Assembly (NCBI GenBank): GCA_020621405.1
Contig: JAHRYN010000001.1
Location: 124,001 to 188,000 of the forward strand
DNA from: Betaproteobacteria bacterium
GTDB lineage: Bacteria > Pseudomonadota > Gammaproteobacteria > Burkholderiales > Rhodocyclaceae
Direction: 5' to 3'
Length of the DNA stretch: 64,000 bases
This document shows, piece by piece, positions 58,523 through 62,288 of this stretch. The stretch's first letter is position 1, and each line of letters begins with the position of its first letter. Under the pieces are notes generated by a model. It saw only the letters and a list, made by a program, of their open reading frames with translations, was not told the DNA's origin and did no database searches. A program made the translations under genes and the position numbers.

Positions 58523-59746
58523 TCAGTCGCGCGCCAGGTAACGCTCGACCAGCCGCGTCCAGTACGCGACGCCAAGCGGGATGATGTCATCGTTGAAGTC
58601 GTAGCGCGGGTTGTGCAGCATGCAGCCGCCACCCTCCTCGTGGCCCGGCTGCAGCGCGGCTCCTGGTCCGCCGCCGTTGCCAAGCCAGACGTAGCAGCCC
58701 GGACGCTGCTCCAGCATGTAGGCGAAATCCTCGGCCCCCATGCTGGGCGGGTAGCTGGTGTGCACCGCGCCCTCGCCCATCAGCTCCCGTCCGACTCCGG
58801 CGCAGAAATCAGCTTCGACCGACGTGTTCACGGTCGGCGGGTAGCCGCGCCGGTAGCTGACCTCTGCCGTGACGTCATGTGCGGCAGCAATGCCGAACGC
58901 GATGCGGCGGATGCCGGCTTCCAGCTGATCGCGCACGTCCGGCGAAAACGCCCGCGCCGTACCGCGCAGCGTCGCCGTCTGCGGGATGACGTTGTAGGCC
59001 TCGCCAGCATTGAACTGGGTGATGCTGACCACGCCGCAGTCCACCGGCGACAGGTTGCGCGACACGATGGACTGCAGCGCCTGCACGATGGCCGCACCGG
59101 CCAGCACCGGGTCGGCGCCCAGATGCGGCATCGCGGCGTGGGCGCCGCGCCCCTCGATGACGATTTCGATTTCGTCGCTGCACGCCATCGCCGGCCCGTC
59201 GTGCACCGCCATCTGTCCGACCGGCAACCCCGGCCAGTTGTGCAGGCCGAATACCGCCTGCATCGGAAAACGCTCGAACAGCCCGTCGGCGATCATCGCC
59301 GGCGCACCGCCGCGCCCCTCCTCGGCCGGCTGGAAGATGAAATACACCGTGCCGTCGAAACCGCGCGTCGCGGCCAGATATTCGGCTGCCGCCAGCAGCA
59401 TCGTGGTGTGGCCGTCATGACCGCAGCCGTGCATGCGGCCGGCGTGCGTCGAACGGTGGGCAAAGGTGTTCTGCTCGGTCATCGGCAGCGCGTCCATGTC
59501 GGCGCGCAGGCCGATGGCCACCGGCCCCGTTCCGGCGCGCAGCATGCCGACCACGCCGGTGCGCCCGATTCCCTCATGCACCTCGAGACCGGCTTCGCGC
59601 AGCGCGCGTGCGACCAGCTCTGCCGTGCGAGCCTCCTCGAACGCCAGTTCCGGATGCGCATGCAGATCGCGCCGCATGCCCGTCCAGCGTTCGGCCGGCC
59701 CGGCCAGCGCCTCGACCAGCGGATGTGTGTCGGACGACGTGCTCAT
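58523..59746 (-). CDS. M20D amidohydrolase (hippurate hydrolase-like)
   Basis: Metal-dependent amidohydrolase of 407 residues. Motifs are RRDLHAHPELAFEE, LRADMDALPMTEQN, GCGHDGHTTMLLAAAEYLA, FQPAEEGRGGAPAMI and GRGAHAAMPHLGADP, typical of HipO and IAA-amino acid hydrolases. The substrate is an N-acylated amino acid, but which one cannot be told. The start at 59746 overlaps the MEKHLA gene stop by four bases; a longer frame upstream is not used. Confidence 0.9.
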   Translation of the reverse strand: MSTSSDTHPLVEALAGPAERWTGMRRDLHAHPELAFEEARTAELVARALREAGLEVHEGIGRTGVVGMLRAGTGPVAIGLRADMDALPMTEQNTFAHRSTHAGRMHGCGHDGHTTMLLAAAEYLAATRGFDGTVYFIFQPAEEGRGGAPAMIADGLFERFPMQAVFGLHNWPGLPVGQMAVHDGPAMACSDEIEIVIEGRGAHAAMPHLGADPVLAGAAIVQALQSIVSRNLSPVDCGVVSITQFNAGEAYNVIPQTATLRGTARAFSPDVRDQLEAGIRRIAFGIAAAHDVTAEVSYRRGYPPTVNTSVEADFCAGVGRELMGEGAVHTSYPPSMGAEDFAYMLEQRPGCYVWLGNGGGPGAALQPGHEEGGGCMLHNPRYDFNDDIIPLGVAYWTRLVERYLARD

Positions 59747-60189
59747 TGCAGTTCCTCGATATCGGAAAACATCGCTGCCTGCCCGCGCAGCACGCCCTGC
59801 GCATCGATCACGTTCCACACCGTGGCGCGGCTGATGCGGAACAGCGTGCCGTCGCGACGCACACGGATGCCGCTGTAGTCAGCGATGAAGCCCTGCCGGG
59901 TGACCAGTTCGAGCAACCGCGTACGCTCGTCGCGCTCCGGTGCACGCGCCGACAGCCGCGACGGCAGCGCGATGAATTCGGCCCAGGCATAGCCGAACAG
60001 CTGCTGGGCGAACACATTGGCGTAATTGAACACCGGGTCGTCCTCGATGCCGTGCGACACCAGCGCGAATGGCGCGTTGTACAGCGTGGTGGCGTCGGAC
60101 GGCAGGCGCTGGCCGGTGACGCGCGCGAAGCTGTCGGCCAGCAGGGCGGAATGTTCGCGCAGGAAGGCGGGATCGGGCATGGCGGTCAT
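59743..60189 (-). CDS. MEKHLA-domain (PAS-like) protein
   Basis: Protein of about 148 residues. The MEKHLA/PAS-type features are ALVSHGIEDDPVFNYANVFA, QQLFGYAWAEFIALPSRLSA and the C-terminal WNVIDAQGVLRGQAAMF. MEKHLA domains occur alone in many bacteria and in plant HD-ZIP III factors, with unknown ligand. The ATG at 60189 is preferred over upstream in-frame starts. It is the first gene of a two-gene operon with the amidohydrolase. Confidence 0.8.
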   Translation of the reverse strand: MTAMPDPAFLREHSALLADSFARVTGQRLPSDATTLYNAPFALVSHGIEDDPVFNYANVFAQQLFGYAWAEFIALPSRLSARAPERDERTRLLELVTRQGFIADYSGIRVRRDGTLFRISRATVWNVIDAQGVLRGQAAMFSDIEELQ

Positions 60190-60384
60190 CGCTCGAATGT
60201 AGCCGCCCAAAGATACCACCCGTCGATGTCCGGACGCTCATTGTCCAGCCATCGACAGGACCACCGCAGGCTCATGGCCATTCCGCGTCGGGCGCGCCGA
60301 TCGGCGACACATGCGATCAAGGCCGGTGGTCACCCGGCGCCACCGACGGGCTGGCGGCAGTCCCGATCACGAAAATCGCGGCAC

Positions 60385-60427
60385 AAACGAAAAGGGCCGG
60401 CCCTCGCACAAAGGCGAAGACCGGCCC
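60385..60427 (-). terminator. Intrinsic terminator of the PEP-CTERM gene
   Basis: On the minus strand GGGCCGGTCTTCGC pairs with GCGAGGGCCGGCCC around a six-base loop (CTTTGT), with two G-T pairs, and is followed by TTTTCGTTT. It begins 15 bases after the PEP-CTERM stop codon. Confidence 0.85.
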
Positions 60428-60441
60428 GTCGGCGATCCGTT

Positions 60442-61071
60442 TCAGCGCCGACGCTGACGCCGTACGACAGCACTCAGACCGGCAAGACCCAGCGCGAACA
60501 TGAGCGCTTCGGTCGGCTCGGGCACGGCGGTGATCTGCGTCACGAAGTAGGCATGACCGTTGTAGCCCTGAGACCAGTCAGCGTAGTACGGCCAGATGGC
60601 CTCGGCCGTGCCGGAAATGCCCGGCCTGGGGTTCCATATCTGCAGCGACTGATTCGTGCCCAGACTGACGGGCGTCGCGCTCGCCGATGCGAAACTCGAT
60701 TCGCTGACCGTCCAGTGGGTCGTGTCGGTGGACAGCGAGGTCGTCCCGTTCGAGAACTGGAATCCACTGCCGGTGATCTGGAAATCGCCGATGAACATCG
60801 CCGGACCGCTGTATACGTTCTGCGCATCGATCAGCAGATACACGCTCTGTCCCGGCGCCAGTGCAACGCCGCTGAAAGACTCGGTCGCGCCCCATCCCGA
60901 CTGCTTGTTCCACACCAGCTCGCCTGCCGATGCAGTGAGATCCGATGACAGATACACCTGCAGATAATCGTCGGCGGTGAAGCTGCCGGACAGCGTTGCG
61001 GCCTGAGCCACTGCACCGCTGCATCCCAGCAAACCGGCCGCCAACCAGCCGATCACATGGTTTTTTTTCAT
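60442..61071 (-). CDS. PEP-CTERM sorting domain protein
   Basis: Exported protein of 209 residues. The signal peptide ends near AQA (residue 24). The C-terminus is VPEPTEALMFALGLAGLSAV followed by VRRQRRR: a PEP motif, a membrane helix and a basic cluster, the signal for exosortase. The mature part is Ser/Thr/Gly-rich and has no cysteine. GGGAG lies seven bases before the ATG. Such proteins are associated with exopolysaccharide and floc formation. No exosortase gene is in this window. The gene has a sigma-54 promoter and its own terminator, so it is monocistronic. Confidence 0.9.
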   Translation of the reverse strand: MKKNHVIGWLAAGLLGCSGAVAQAATLSGSFTADDYLQVYLSSDLTASAGELVWNKQSGWGATESFSGVALAPGQSVYLLIDAQNVYSGPAMFIGDFQITGSGFQFSNGTTSLSTDTTHWTVSESSFASASATPVSLGTNQSLQIWNPRPGISGTAEAIWPYYADWSQGYNGHAYFVTQITAVPEPTEALMFALGLAGLSAVVRRQRRR

Positions 61072-61223
61072 TGCTTTACTCCCTTGTTCGGATTTGCTCA
61101 GTAGCGCGAACCTCATGACCGGACAACACGGCCACGTTGCTTTCGACACATGAGGCAGAGACTGCGGTGTGATCGCTAACGATGTCACATCGGATTGCGC
61201 CCCATATCGTGCCGCCAGCTTTA

Positions 61224-61239
61224 AGCAATCGGTGAGCCA
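61224..61239 (-). promoter_or_regulatory. Sigma-54 (-24/-12) promoter of the PEP-CTERM gene
   Basis: The minus strand reads TGGCTCACCGATTGCT. It matches the consensus TGGCACGN4TTGCW at all defined positions except two, with the invariant GG and GC at correct spacing. Transcription would start near 61213, leaving a leader of about 140 bases. PEP-CTERM genes in relatives such as Zoogloea are known to depend on RpoN and the PrsK/PrsR system. Confidence 0.78.
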
Positions 61240-61257
61240 ACCTTGATGAAAGACATT

Positions 61258-61270
61258 TAATCAATTGATT
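61258..61270 (-). promoter_or_regulatory. IHF-like site upstream of the sigma-54 promoter
   Basis: The minus strand AATCAATTGATTA matches WATCAANNNNTTR exactly, within an AT-rich island of a GC-rich genome. Its centre is about -51 from the predicted start, where IHF bends DNA at sigma-54 promoters. Confidence 0.6.
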
Positions 61271-61299
61271 TAAAACGACTTATTTAATTTTAAAATCGG

Positions 61300-61314
61300 C
61301 GGCACCGCGTGCCG
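61300..61314. promoter_or_regulatory. Inverted repeat, candidate activator site
   Basis: CGGCACCGCGTGCCG is a 6-3-6 perfect inverted repeat centred about -94 from the predicted sigma-54 start, a usual distance for an enhancer-binding protein such as PrsR. Identity of the binder is inference. Confidence 0.35.
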
Positions 61315-61439
61315 AAAGTCGTAGTGTAAAAATTGCCGACGAAAGGCGTTCTTCCGGAACCGGCGCCTGGATACCGACCCTGCGGAGGTAAGGGACATTG
61401 CCCGCACCGTGACGGCTGCTGTCGGCTAACCTGTATCGC

Positions 61440-62288
61440 ATGAGCACCCTCTACGGCGTCGATTTCACCTCTGCCCCGTCACCGCGCAAACCGATCACCG
61501 TCGCGCGCGGACGCGTGGCTGACGACGGTGCAGTACTTCTGGAACGGCTCGAACGCCTGCCGTCCTGGGCGGATTTCGAAGCCTTTCTGACCCGGCCCGG
61601 CCCCTGGCTTGGCGGTTTCGATTTTCCGTTCGGCTTGCCGCGCGAATCGGTGATGGAGCATGGCTGGCCACTCGACTGGGCAGGCATGGTGCGGGCGGTC
61701 GCGCAGCTGTCGCGGGCGGAATTCAAGGCGCTGGCCGATGCCGAGCGTCTGCACCGCCCCGTCGGCAGCAAATACACTCATCGCGTGACCGACCGGCCTG
61801 CCGGTTCACACAGCCCGATGAAATTCGTCAATCCACCGGTCGCCTGGATGTTCCAGGAAGGCGCCCGCCGCCTGCTCGACGCCGGCGTCCATGTGCCCGG
61901 ATTGCACGGCGGCGACGGCACGCGCGTGGCACTGGAAGCCTATCCCGGCTGGCTGGCGCGCAACATCGTGCCGGCGTCGTACAAGAGCGAATCGGCGGCG
62001 GGCCAGACCCGTGCCCGTCTATCCAACCGGATGCTGATCGTCGAGGCGCTGCTGCGTGGCACCCATCCGCTGGGCGTAGCCTTGCGCAGCCCGGACCGGG
62101 CGCTGCAGGATGCGATGATCGAGGATGGCACCGGCGATACACTCGACTGCGTGCTGTGCTTGGTGCAGGCCGCCTGGGCCTGGACGAGACGGGACGCAGG
62201 CTACGGCCTGCCGCTGAACATCGACCCGGTCGAGGGCTGGGTACTTGGCGTACCGCCGGCCGGTATCAAGGACGGCCGCCGACACTGA
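61440..62288 (+). CDS. DUF429-family protein
   Basis: Protein of 282 residues. The DUF429 hallmarks are the N-terminal YGVDFTSAPSPRKP, GGFDFPFGLPRE, ALEAYPGWLAR and the C-terminal EDGTGDTLDCVLCLVQAAWA. The family has an RNase H-like fold with conserved acidic residues, but its activity is not established. No Shine-Dalgarno is visible before the ATG. It converges on the NhaR-type gene with a one-base gap and no terminator. Confidence 0.75.
   Translation: MSTLYGVDFTSAPSPRKPITVARGRVADDGAVLLERLERLPSWADFEAFLTRPGPWLGGFDFPFGLPRESVMEHGWPLDWAGMVRAVAQLSRAEFKALADAERLHRPVGSKYTHRVTDRPAGSHSPMKFVNPPVAWMFQEGARRLLDAGVHVPGLHGGDGTRVALEAYPGWLARNIVPASYKSESAAGQTRARLSNRMLIVEALLRGTHPLGVALRSPDRALQDAMIEDGTGDTLDCVLCLVQAAWAWTRRDAGYGLPLNIDPVEGWVLGVPPAGIKDGRRH

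Follow-up and report, generated by a model that had tools for sequence, protein, structure and literature searches.

The upstream region of a PEP-CTERM protein gene in this stretch of DNA is best read as a sigma-54-dependent promoter that PrsR activates and that serves a PEP-CTERM operon of one gene, a reading drawn from sequence to which we give a probability of roughly 0.87. The window, by which we mean the whole 64-kb stretch that was analysed, comprises bases 124001-188000 of contig 12 in a 3.8-Mb genome. Toward the gene, the upstream elements follow each other in the order CGTCGGCAATTTTTACA (61341-61325), a 6-3-6 inverted repeat (61314-61300), AATCAATTGATTA (61270-61258), and TGGCTCACCGATTGCT (61239-61224). 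An earlier note on this DNA had named the promoter, the IHF site, the repeat, and the terminator, all of which were found again at or close to where it placed them; its list lacked the box ending in TTTACA (motif 1), which is decisive for the regulon assignment. The features of the locus, in window positions, are as follows.

61325-61341, minus strand: predicted PrsR box (motif 1), CGTCGGCAATTTTTACA, fitting the published 17-nt motif ending in TTTACA and kept in 8/8 related genes
61300-61314, no strand assigned: 6-3-6 inverted repeat CGGCAC-GCG-GTGCCG, not a conserved PrsR target
61258-61270, minus strand: IHF site, AATCAATTGATTA, an exact WATCAAN4TTR with its centre 26 nt before the GG
61224-61239, minus strand: sigma-54 -24/-12 promoter, TGGCTCACCGATTGCT, with the -24/-12 kept in 8/8 related genes and RpoN encoded in the genome
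61213, minus strand: predicted transcription start, placed from position alone with the C of the GC taken as -12, in agreement with the earlier note
60442-61071, minus strand: PEP-CTERM protein gene, 209 aa, ATG at 61071, with a signal-peptide-like start and a GGGAG ribosome-site-like stretch at 61083-61079
60451-60525, minus strand: PEP-CTERM sorting segment VPEP...VVRRQRRR, with a TIGR02595 match and a predicted C-terminal helix (residues 186-208)
60394-60427, minus strand: intrinsic terminator with a 14-pair stem, a 6-nt loop, and a TTTTCG tail
61440-62288, plus strand: divergent ORF of 282 aa, with no family match above a cut-off

The 209-aa protein, whose start codon (ATG 61071) was picked with a simple score, matched the PEP-CTERM family TIGR02595 at 19.2 bits (cut-off 16), scored below the cut-off of PF07589 (16.5 and 20.7 bits, respectively), and showed a weak likeness to PepA (NF033554, 24.4 bits; cut-off 80). 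Structure prediction returned a moderate model (mean pLDDT 64.9) with a beta-rich body and a C-terminal helix. Taken together, the TIGR02595 match, the 368 nt of intergenic DNA between this gene and the divergent ORF at 61440, and the downstream terminator describe a PEP-CTERM gene that forms a single-gene operon behind a large intergenic region. Its earlier description as a lone PEP-CTERM gene holds for the operon but not for the genome, in which 50 PEP-CTERM matches lie above the family cut-off. A gene for a MEKHLA-domain protein adjoins on the minus strand (window 59743-60219), and such a gene also stands beside the PEP-CTERM gene in 3/7 congener loci (1.5-kb flanks).

Promoters of this class are already known, and the window promoter is, by its predicted elements, a sound member. 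In the text of Haft et al. 2006 (PMC1569441), motif 1 is a 17-nt sequence ending in TTTACA and motif 2 is the sigma-54 motif of PEP-CTERM genes; the pair stands before 99/167 proteobacterial PEP-CTERM genes with a mean spacer of 62.8 nt (S.D. 10.6, range 32-92), and motif 1 was linked to PrsR by phylogenetic profile. Judged from that text, logo figure aside, the box at 61325-61341 fits motif 1 and the 6-3-6 repeat does not. Its pattern GTCGN6TTTACA (61340-61325) has a single match in the 64-kb window (0.01 expected), and the box stands 85 nt from the T and 86 nt from the GG of the -24/-12, inside the published range. The predicted motif-1 box is thus the likely PrsR target here. The -24/-12 by itself proves nothing, since TGGCN7TTGCW matched twice in the window with 1.02 matches expected, and at least two matches occurred in 28/100 shuffles. 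The locus shares with the published class the 17-nt TTTACA motif, the 32-92 nt spacer, the -24/-12, the single-gene operon, the large intergenic region, and PrsR/PrsK, and departs from the published mean spacer with its 86 nt to the GG and its exact IHF site.

We further searched the source genome for the regulators. PrsR was recovered by profile search at 722 bits (cut-off 502.6), PrsK (651 bits) adjoins it at C2:297 kb, and RpoN was found at 451 bits (TIGR02395; cut-off 277), together with genes for both IHF subunits, alpha and beta, and two exosortase matches above cut-off. A Zoogloea study reportedly tied the PrsK/PrsR two-component system and RpoN to PEP-CTERM and to floc formation. The layout also recurs before other PEP-CTERM genes. 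A first composite search (TTTACA-N40-70-TGGCN8TGC) returned four places, all upstream of a PEP-CTERM match. A weight matrix for the box and the -24/-12, trained on 30 promoters, all outside the genus, ranked the upstream regions of 14 of the 54 PEP-CTERM matches (E up to 10) above the best of its controls (424 shuffled, 54 reversed, and 54 reverse-complement regions), with the window's gene in fifth place; the remaining 40 regions did not exceed the controls. Box and -24/-12 thus precede 13 other PEP-CTERM matches in addition to the window's gene. Box-to-GG distances in these 14 promoters were 52, 53, 54, 54, 63, 63, 64, 64, 64, 82, 83, 85, 86, and 86 nt. With PrsR, PrsK, and RpoN encoded in the genome and a motif-1 box and -24/-12 before the gene, its proposed membership of the PrsK/PrsR-RpoN regulon is well supported at the level of predicted sites.

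Relatives of the 209-aa protein were present in 9/61 genomes, source included: 7/12 congeners hold one (63-67% identity), as does a single genome of a different family within the order (36% identity), where its frame contains one stop. All eight related genes keep a YGTCG box and the -24/-12, with TTTACA in seven and CTTACA in one, at box-to-GG distances of 63, 63, 63, 66, 75, 88, 88, and 88 nt. None of these eight promoters carries an exact IHF match. With one mismatch allowed (at least 8/9), an IHF-like site is present in 6/8: three have it 14 nt ahead of the GG, where such sites are most frequent, and three closely alike promoters have it at 40 nt; the best IHF scores of the other two are 7 and 6 of 9. 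Three more distant named relatives (two Roseateles and one Methylotenera MAG; 52-58% identity on the matched stretch, 50-54% in alignment) had no upstream pair scoring above controls. Gene family and promoter are therefore not bound to each other, and to judge from these upstream sequences the promoter resembles a module that can be gained and lost. One of the three (L245) has a weak TTGACA with a -24/-12-like match, and a distant-relative gene appears to follow closely on another open frame.

The distance between box and promoter is quantised across relatives. The pattern GTCGN6TTTACA-N30-90-GGCN8TGC gave 142 matches in 34/61 genomes, versus 7 for the reversed pattern, and the box-to-GG distance was 52-55, 61-66, 72-78, or 82-88 nt in 128 of them; the other 14 lay at 42-47 nt (ten at 46 nt, and four at 42, 43, 43, and 47 nt). 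A stretch of the form GTCGGG.AGCTTTACAGC...GCGGCC.GCAGAATGC, found in ten congeners (e.g., L256, G001:C1:3463915-3463990), mimics the promoter pattern. The ten 46-nt matches are this one conserved-looking stretch, of which the inspected copy lies in open frames; they were dropped before the statistics on fetched promoters and are still counted in the distance histogram and in the first periodicity test. Their removal left 132 matches, of which 127 were read first and five were added for the period test; four of the 132, at 42-47 nt, fall outside the 50-90 nt tested, and same-length intervals at least 60% identical were removed to give non-redundant sets of 97 (IHF test) and 102 (period test). 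The 102 promoters within 50-90 nt showed a spacing period of about 10.9 bp (best 10.95; R = 0.77, 0/2000 uniform draws), with R = 0.81 for the 56 promoters with a PEP-CTERM tail downstream and R = 0.77 for the 71 outside the genus. The limits of the four classes were chosen with the histogram in view; they play no part in the periodicity test.

In the source genome, eight TTTACA/-24/-12 pairs were found, five of which stand before PEP-CTERM or HPr-rel-A genes at 82-86 nt to the GG; in the remaining three, near which no PEP-CTERM match lies, the distances of 71, 91, and 98 nt miss the four classes, 71 by very little. Across relatives, a PEP-CTERM tail follows within about 1.5 kb downstream in 78/132 matches, a rough share because the pattern is simple, the stretches are short, and some matches lie in open frames and are possibly false. 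Outside the genus, the tail followed 1/15 matches in the 72-78 nt class versus 26/39 in the 61-66 nt class; the spacing may vary with the type of target, or else the stretches may be too short.

The exact IHF consensus that had been described about 25 bases upstream of the promoter is present, centred 26 nt before the GG and between the box and the -24/-12. It is the only match in the window, with 0.26 expected and one in 21/100 shuffles. Among the 97 non-redundant intervals from relatives (the set of 102 was not used for this test), an IHF-like site (at least 8/9 of WATCAAN4TTR) lay between the box and the -24 in 56, compared with a mean of 9.9 and a maximum of 18 in 200 rounds of dinucleotide shuffling, and exact sites numbered 13, against 0.5 in shuffles. 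A control region just downstream of the promoter, somewhat less A+T-rich than the box-to-GG intervals (50% vs 56%), held an IHF-like site in 3/97 (6.2 in its own shuffles). In one orientation the sites gather 14-15 or 24-26 nt ahead of the GG, in the other 26-28 or 36-38 nt ahead of it, with others scattered; in the 82-88 nt spacing class, 5/7 sites on the strand of the window site are centred 24-26 nt before the GG, the window's included. As 41/97 intervals lack a site of 8/9, some of these promoters may do without IHF. The predicted IHF site is supported as a common element of PrsR-type promoters, and the comparison with relatives suggests that a bending site for IHF is frequent among them, together with whole-helix-turn spacings.

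Under the reading of a PrsR-activated promoter, PrsK would phosphorylate PrsR, which would bind the 17-nt box at 61325-61341, while IHF would bend the DNA at 61258-61270. The resulting loop would carry the AAA+ domain of PrsR onto the sigma-54 RNA polymerase waiting at 61224-61239, and transcription would begin near 61213 and stop at the terminator at 60394. With 86 nt from box to GG, the promoter falls into one of the four distance classes, which differ by about a turn of the helix from one to the next; this would hold PrsR and the polymerase in a fixed rotational relation across the bent segment. An activator site, an IHF bend, and a -24/-12 are also the layout of IHF-assisted NtrC/NifA-type sigma-54 promoters. 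The present promoters share it; what sets them apart is a quantised spacing across the many promoters of a single regulon, with one 17-nt box counted per promoter.

The 6-3-6 inverted repeat had been put forward in the earlier note as the PrsR target, about 40 bases beyond the IHF site. The repeat does lie upstream of that site, at 29 nt rather than about 40, and at a plausible distance upstream of the -24/-12; its exact string occurs once in the window (0.01 expected, for a string picked after being seen). Inverted repeats of this kind are not rare, because a scan for perfect ones (arms 6, loop 0-7) found three in this upstream region and five in total in the eight related ones. The same arms, CGGCAC/GTGCCG, recur 13 nt past the box of a second PrsR-type promoter in the genome (C5:221240-221272). 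As a PrsR site, however, the repeat is missing from 8/8 related promoters and is hence not conserved; the exact pattern TTTACA-N4-34-GGCACN3GTGCC gave four matches in 3 of the 61 genomes searched, and the 12 congeners gave none; open frames at least 240 nt long contain 6 of the 8 exact copies in the 3.8-Mb genome; and the published box differs from it, with a fitting one at 61325-61341. We therefore rejected the repeat as the PrsR box, a role that seems very improbable. Less improbable, though still unlikely, is that it serves as a species-specific extra operator superimposed on the PrsR promoter, through which a second regulator would control either this promoter or the divergent gene at 61440. 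Both copies outside open frames sit in PrsR-type promoters among the 14 high-scoring ones, 10 nt after TTTACA in the window and 13 nt after it at C5:221240, and these are the two places in the source genome where the exact repeat adjoins TTTACA; with eight copies in 3.8 Mb, two such placements are improbable by chance (below 0.01 by a rough hand estimate). This proposal has to contend with the lack of conservation in the relatives examined, box-to-GG distances that differ between the two promoters (86 and 64 nt), and the lack of a candidate regulator.

A different enhancer-binding protein might instead drive the sigma-54-dependent promoter. The PrsR model has 17 matches in the genome at E below 2e-76 over the sigma-54-activator core, PrsR included, and another activator could therefore act here; yet the box fits the motif tied to PrsR by phylogenetic profile in the text of PMC1569441, and the genome holds one PrsR above cut-off, which leaves this alternative improbable. 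Equally hard to credit as the repeat serving as the PrsR box is a sigma-70 promoter reading the gene, with the layout being a chance collection of motifs. Sigma-70-like matches at 9/12 do number two in the scanned region, against 0.3 expected, and one of them is on the minus strand (61315-61287), but the composite score of the box and -24/-12 exceeds those of all shuffled, reversed, and reverse-complement controls, and both elements are conserved in 8/8 related genes. The reading as a PrsR-activated, sigma-54-dependent promoter thus accounts best for the region.

PEP-CTERM proteins have been reported as necessary for floc formation in activated-sludge bacteria, and published systems offer points of comparison. 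The pepA gene of Aquincola tertiaricarbonis RN12 is RpoN1-dependent with a mapped -24/-12 start (PMC9850573). It shares with the window locus a sigma-54 promoter, a predicted upstream enhancer, a PEP-CTERM gene followed by a terminator, and genomic prsK/prsR; the start is mapped there and predicted here, and pepA is followed by prsT, whereas the window gene stands alone. In the same report, prsK or prsK-prsR on a plasmid failed to restore flocs in the mutant studied. In Desulfovibrio vulgaris, a distant bacterium, prediction had likewise assigned a regulator, DVUA0057, to PEP-CTERM genes; in vitro it bound near such genes and enriched its five predicted PEP-CTERM targets, and no binding motif was validated in that study (PMC3333781). 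How PrsR finds and fires its promoters is left open by the cited literature, as far as its text goes. The text of PMC1569441 contains no mention of IHF and no statement on helical or periodic spacing, and neither an IHF site nor discrete spacing for PrsR-type promoters was found in the titles, abstract starts, and passages of the open-licence papers searched. A phased layout common to relatives, often with an IHF site, is apparently unreported.

More broadly, it appears moderately probable that PrsR promoters throughout the regulon share a looping design of three parts (box, IHF bend, and -24/-12) that is phased to the helix, with only four usual distances (about 53, 64, 75, and 85 nt) and with IHF sites whose position shifts along with the distance, and that the regulon extends past PEP-CTERM genes to take in an operon encoding a short exported protein of twin-arginine-like type and the HPr-rel-A system. 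The corrected PrsR target, together with the proposed helical-phase rule and IHF bend, may provide a sharper filter for true regulon members.

Two further box/-24/-12 matches in the source genome deserve mention. One, at C5:222985-223077 with a distance of 63 nt, lies before an ORF of 316 aa whose start resembles a signal peptide and in which the search pattern recognised no PEP-CTERM tail. The other, at C4:355808-355922 (L124), stands before an operon without a PEP-CTERM gene, whose first protein (219-253 aa across loci of this type) has an RRR...G-rich twin-arginine-like start and, for the source copy searched, no NCBIfam match. In the source genome, the next proteins are a PqqD-like one, which at 34.7 bits narrowly misses the TIGR04353 cut-off of 35, and an HprK-related kinase A, whose 157 aa within the stretch score 176.8 bits with TIGR04352 (cut-off 200). 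Promoter and operon of this type were also found in two congeners (L207 and L228) and in two other genera (L176 and L232), with weaker instances at L138 and L153. The first protein is alike in five genomes, while those of L138 and L153 resemble each other over 25 residues only.
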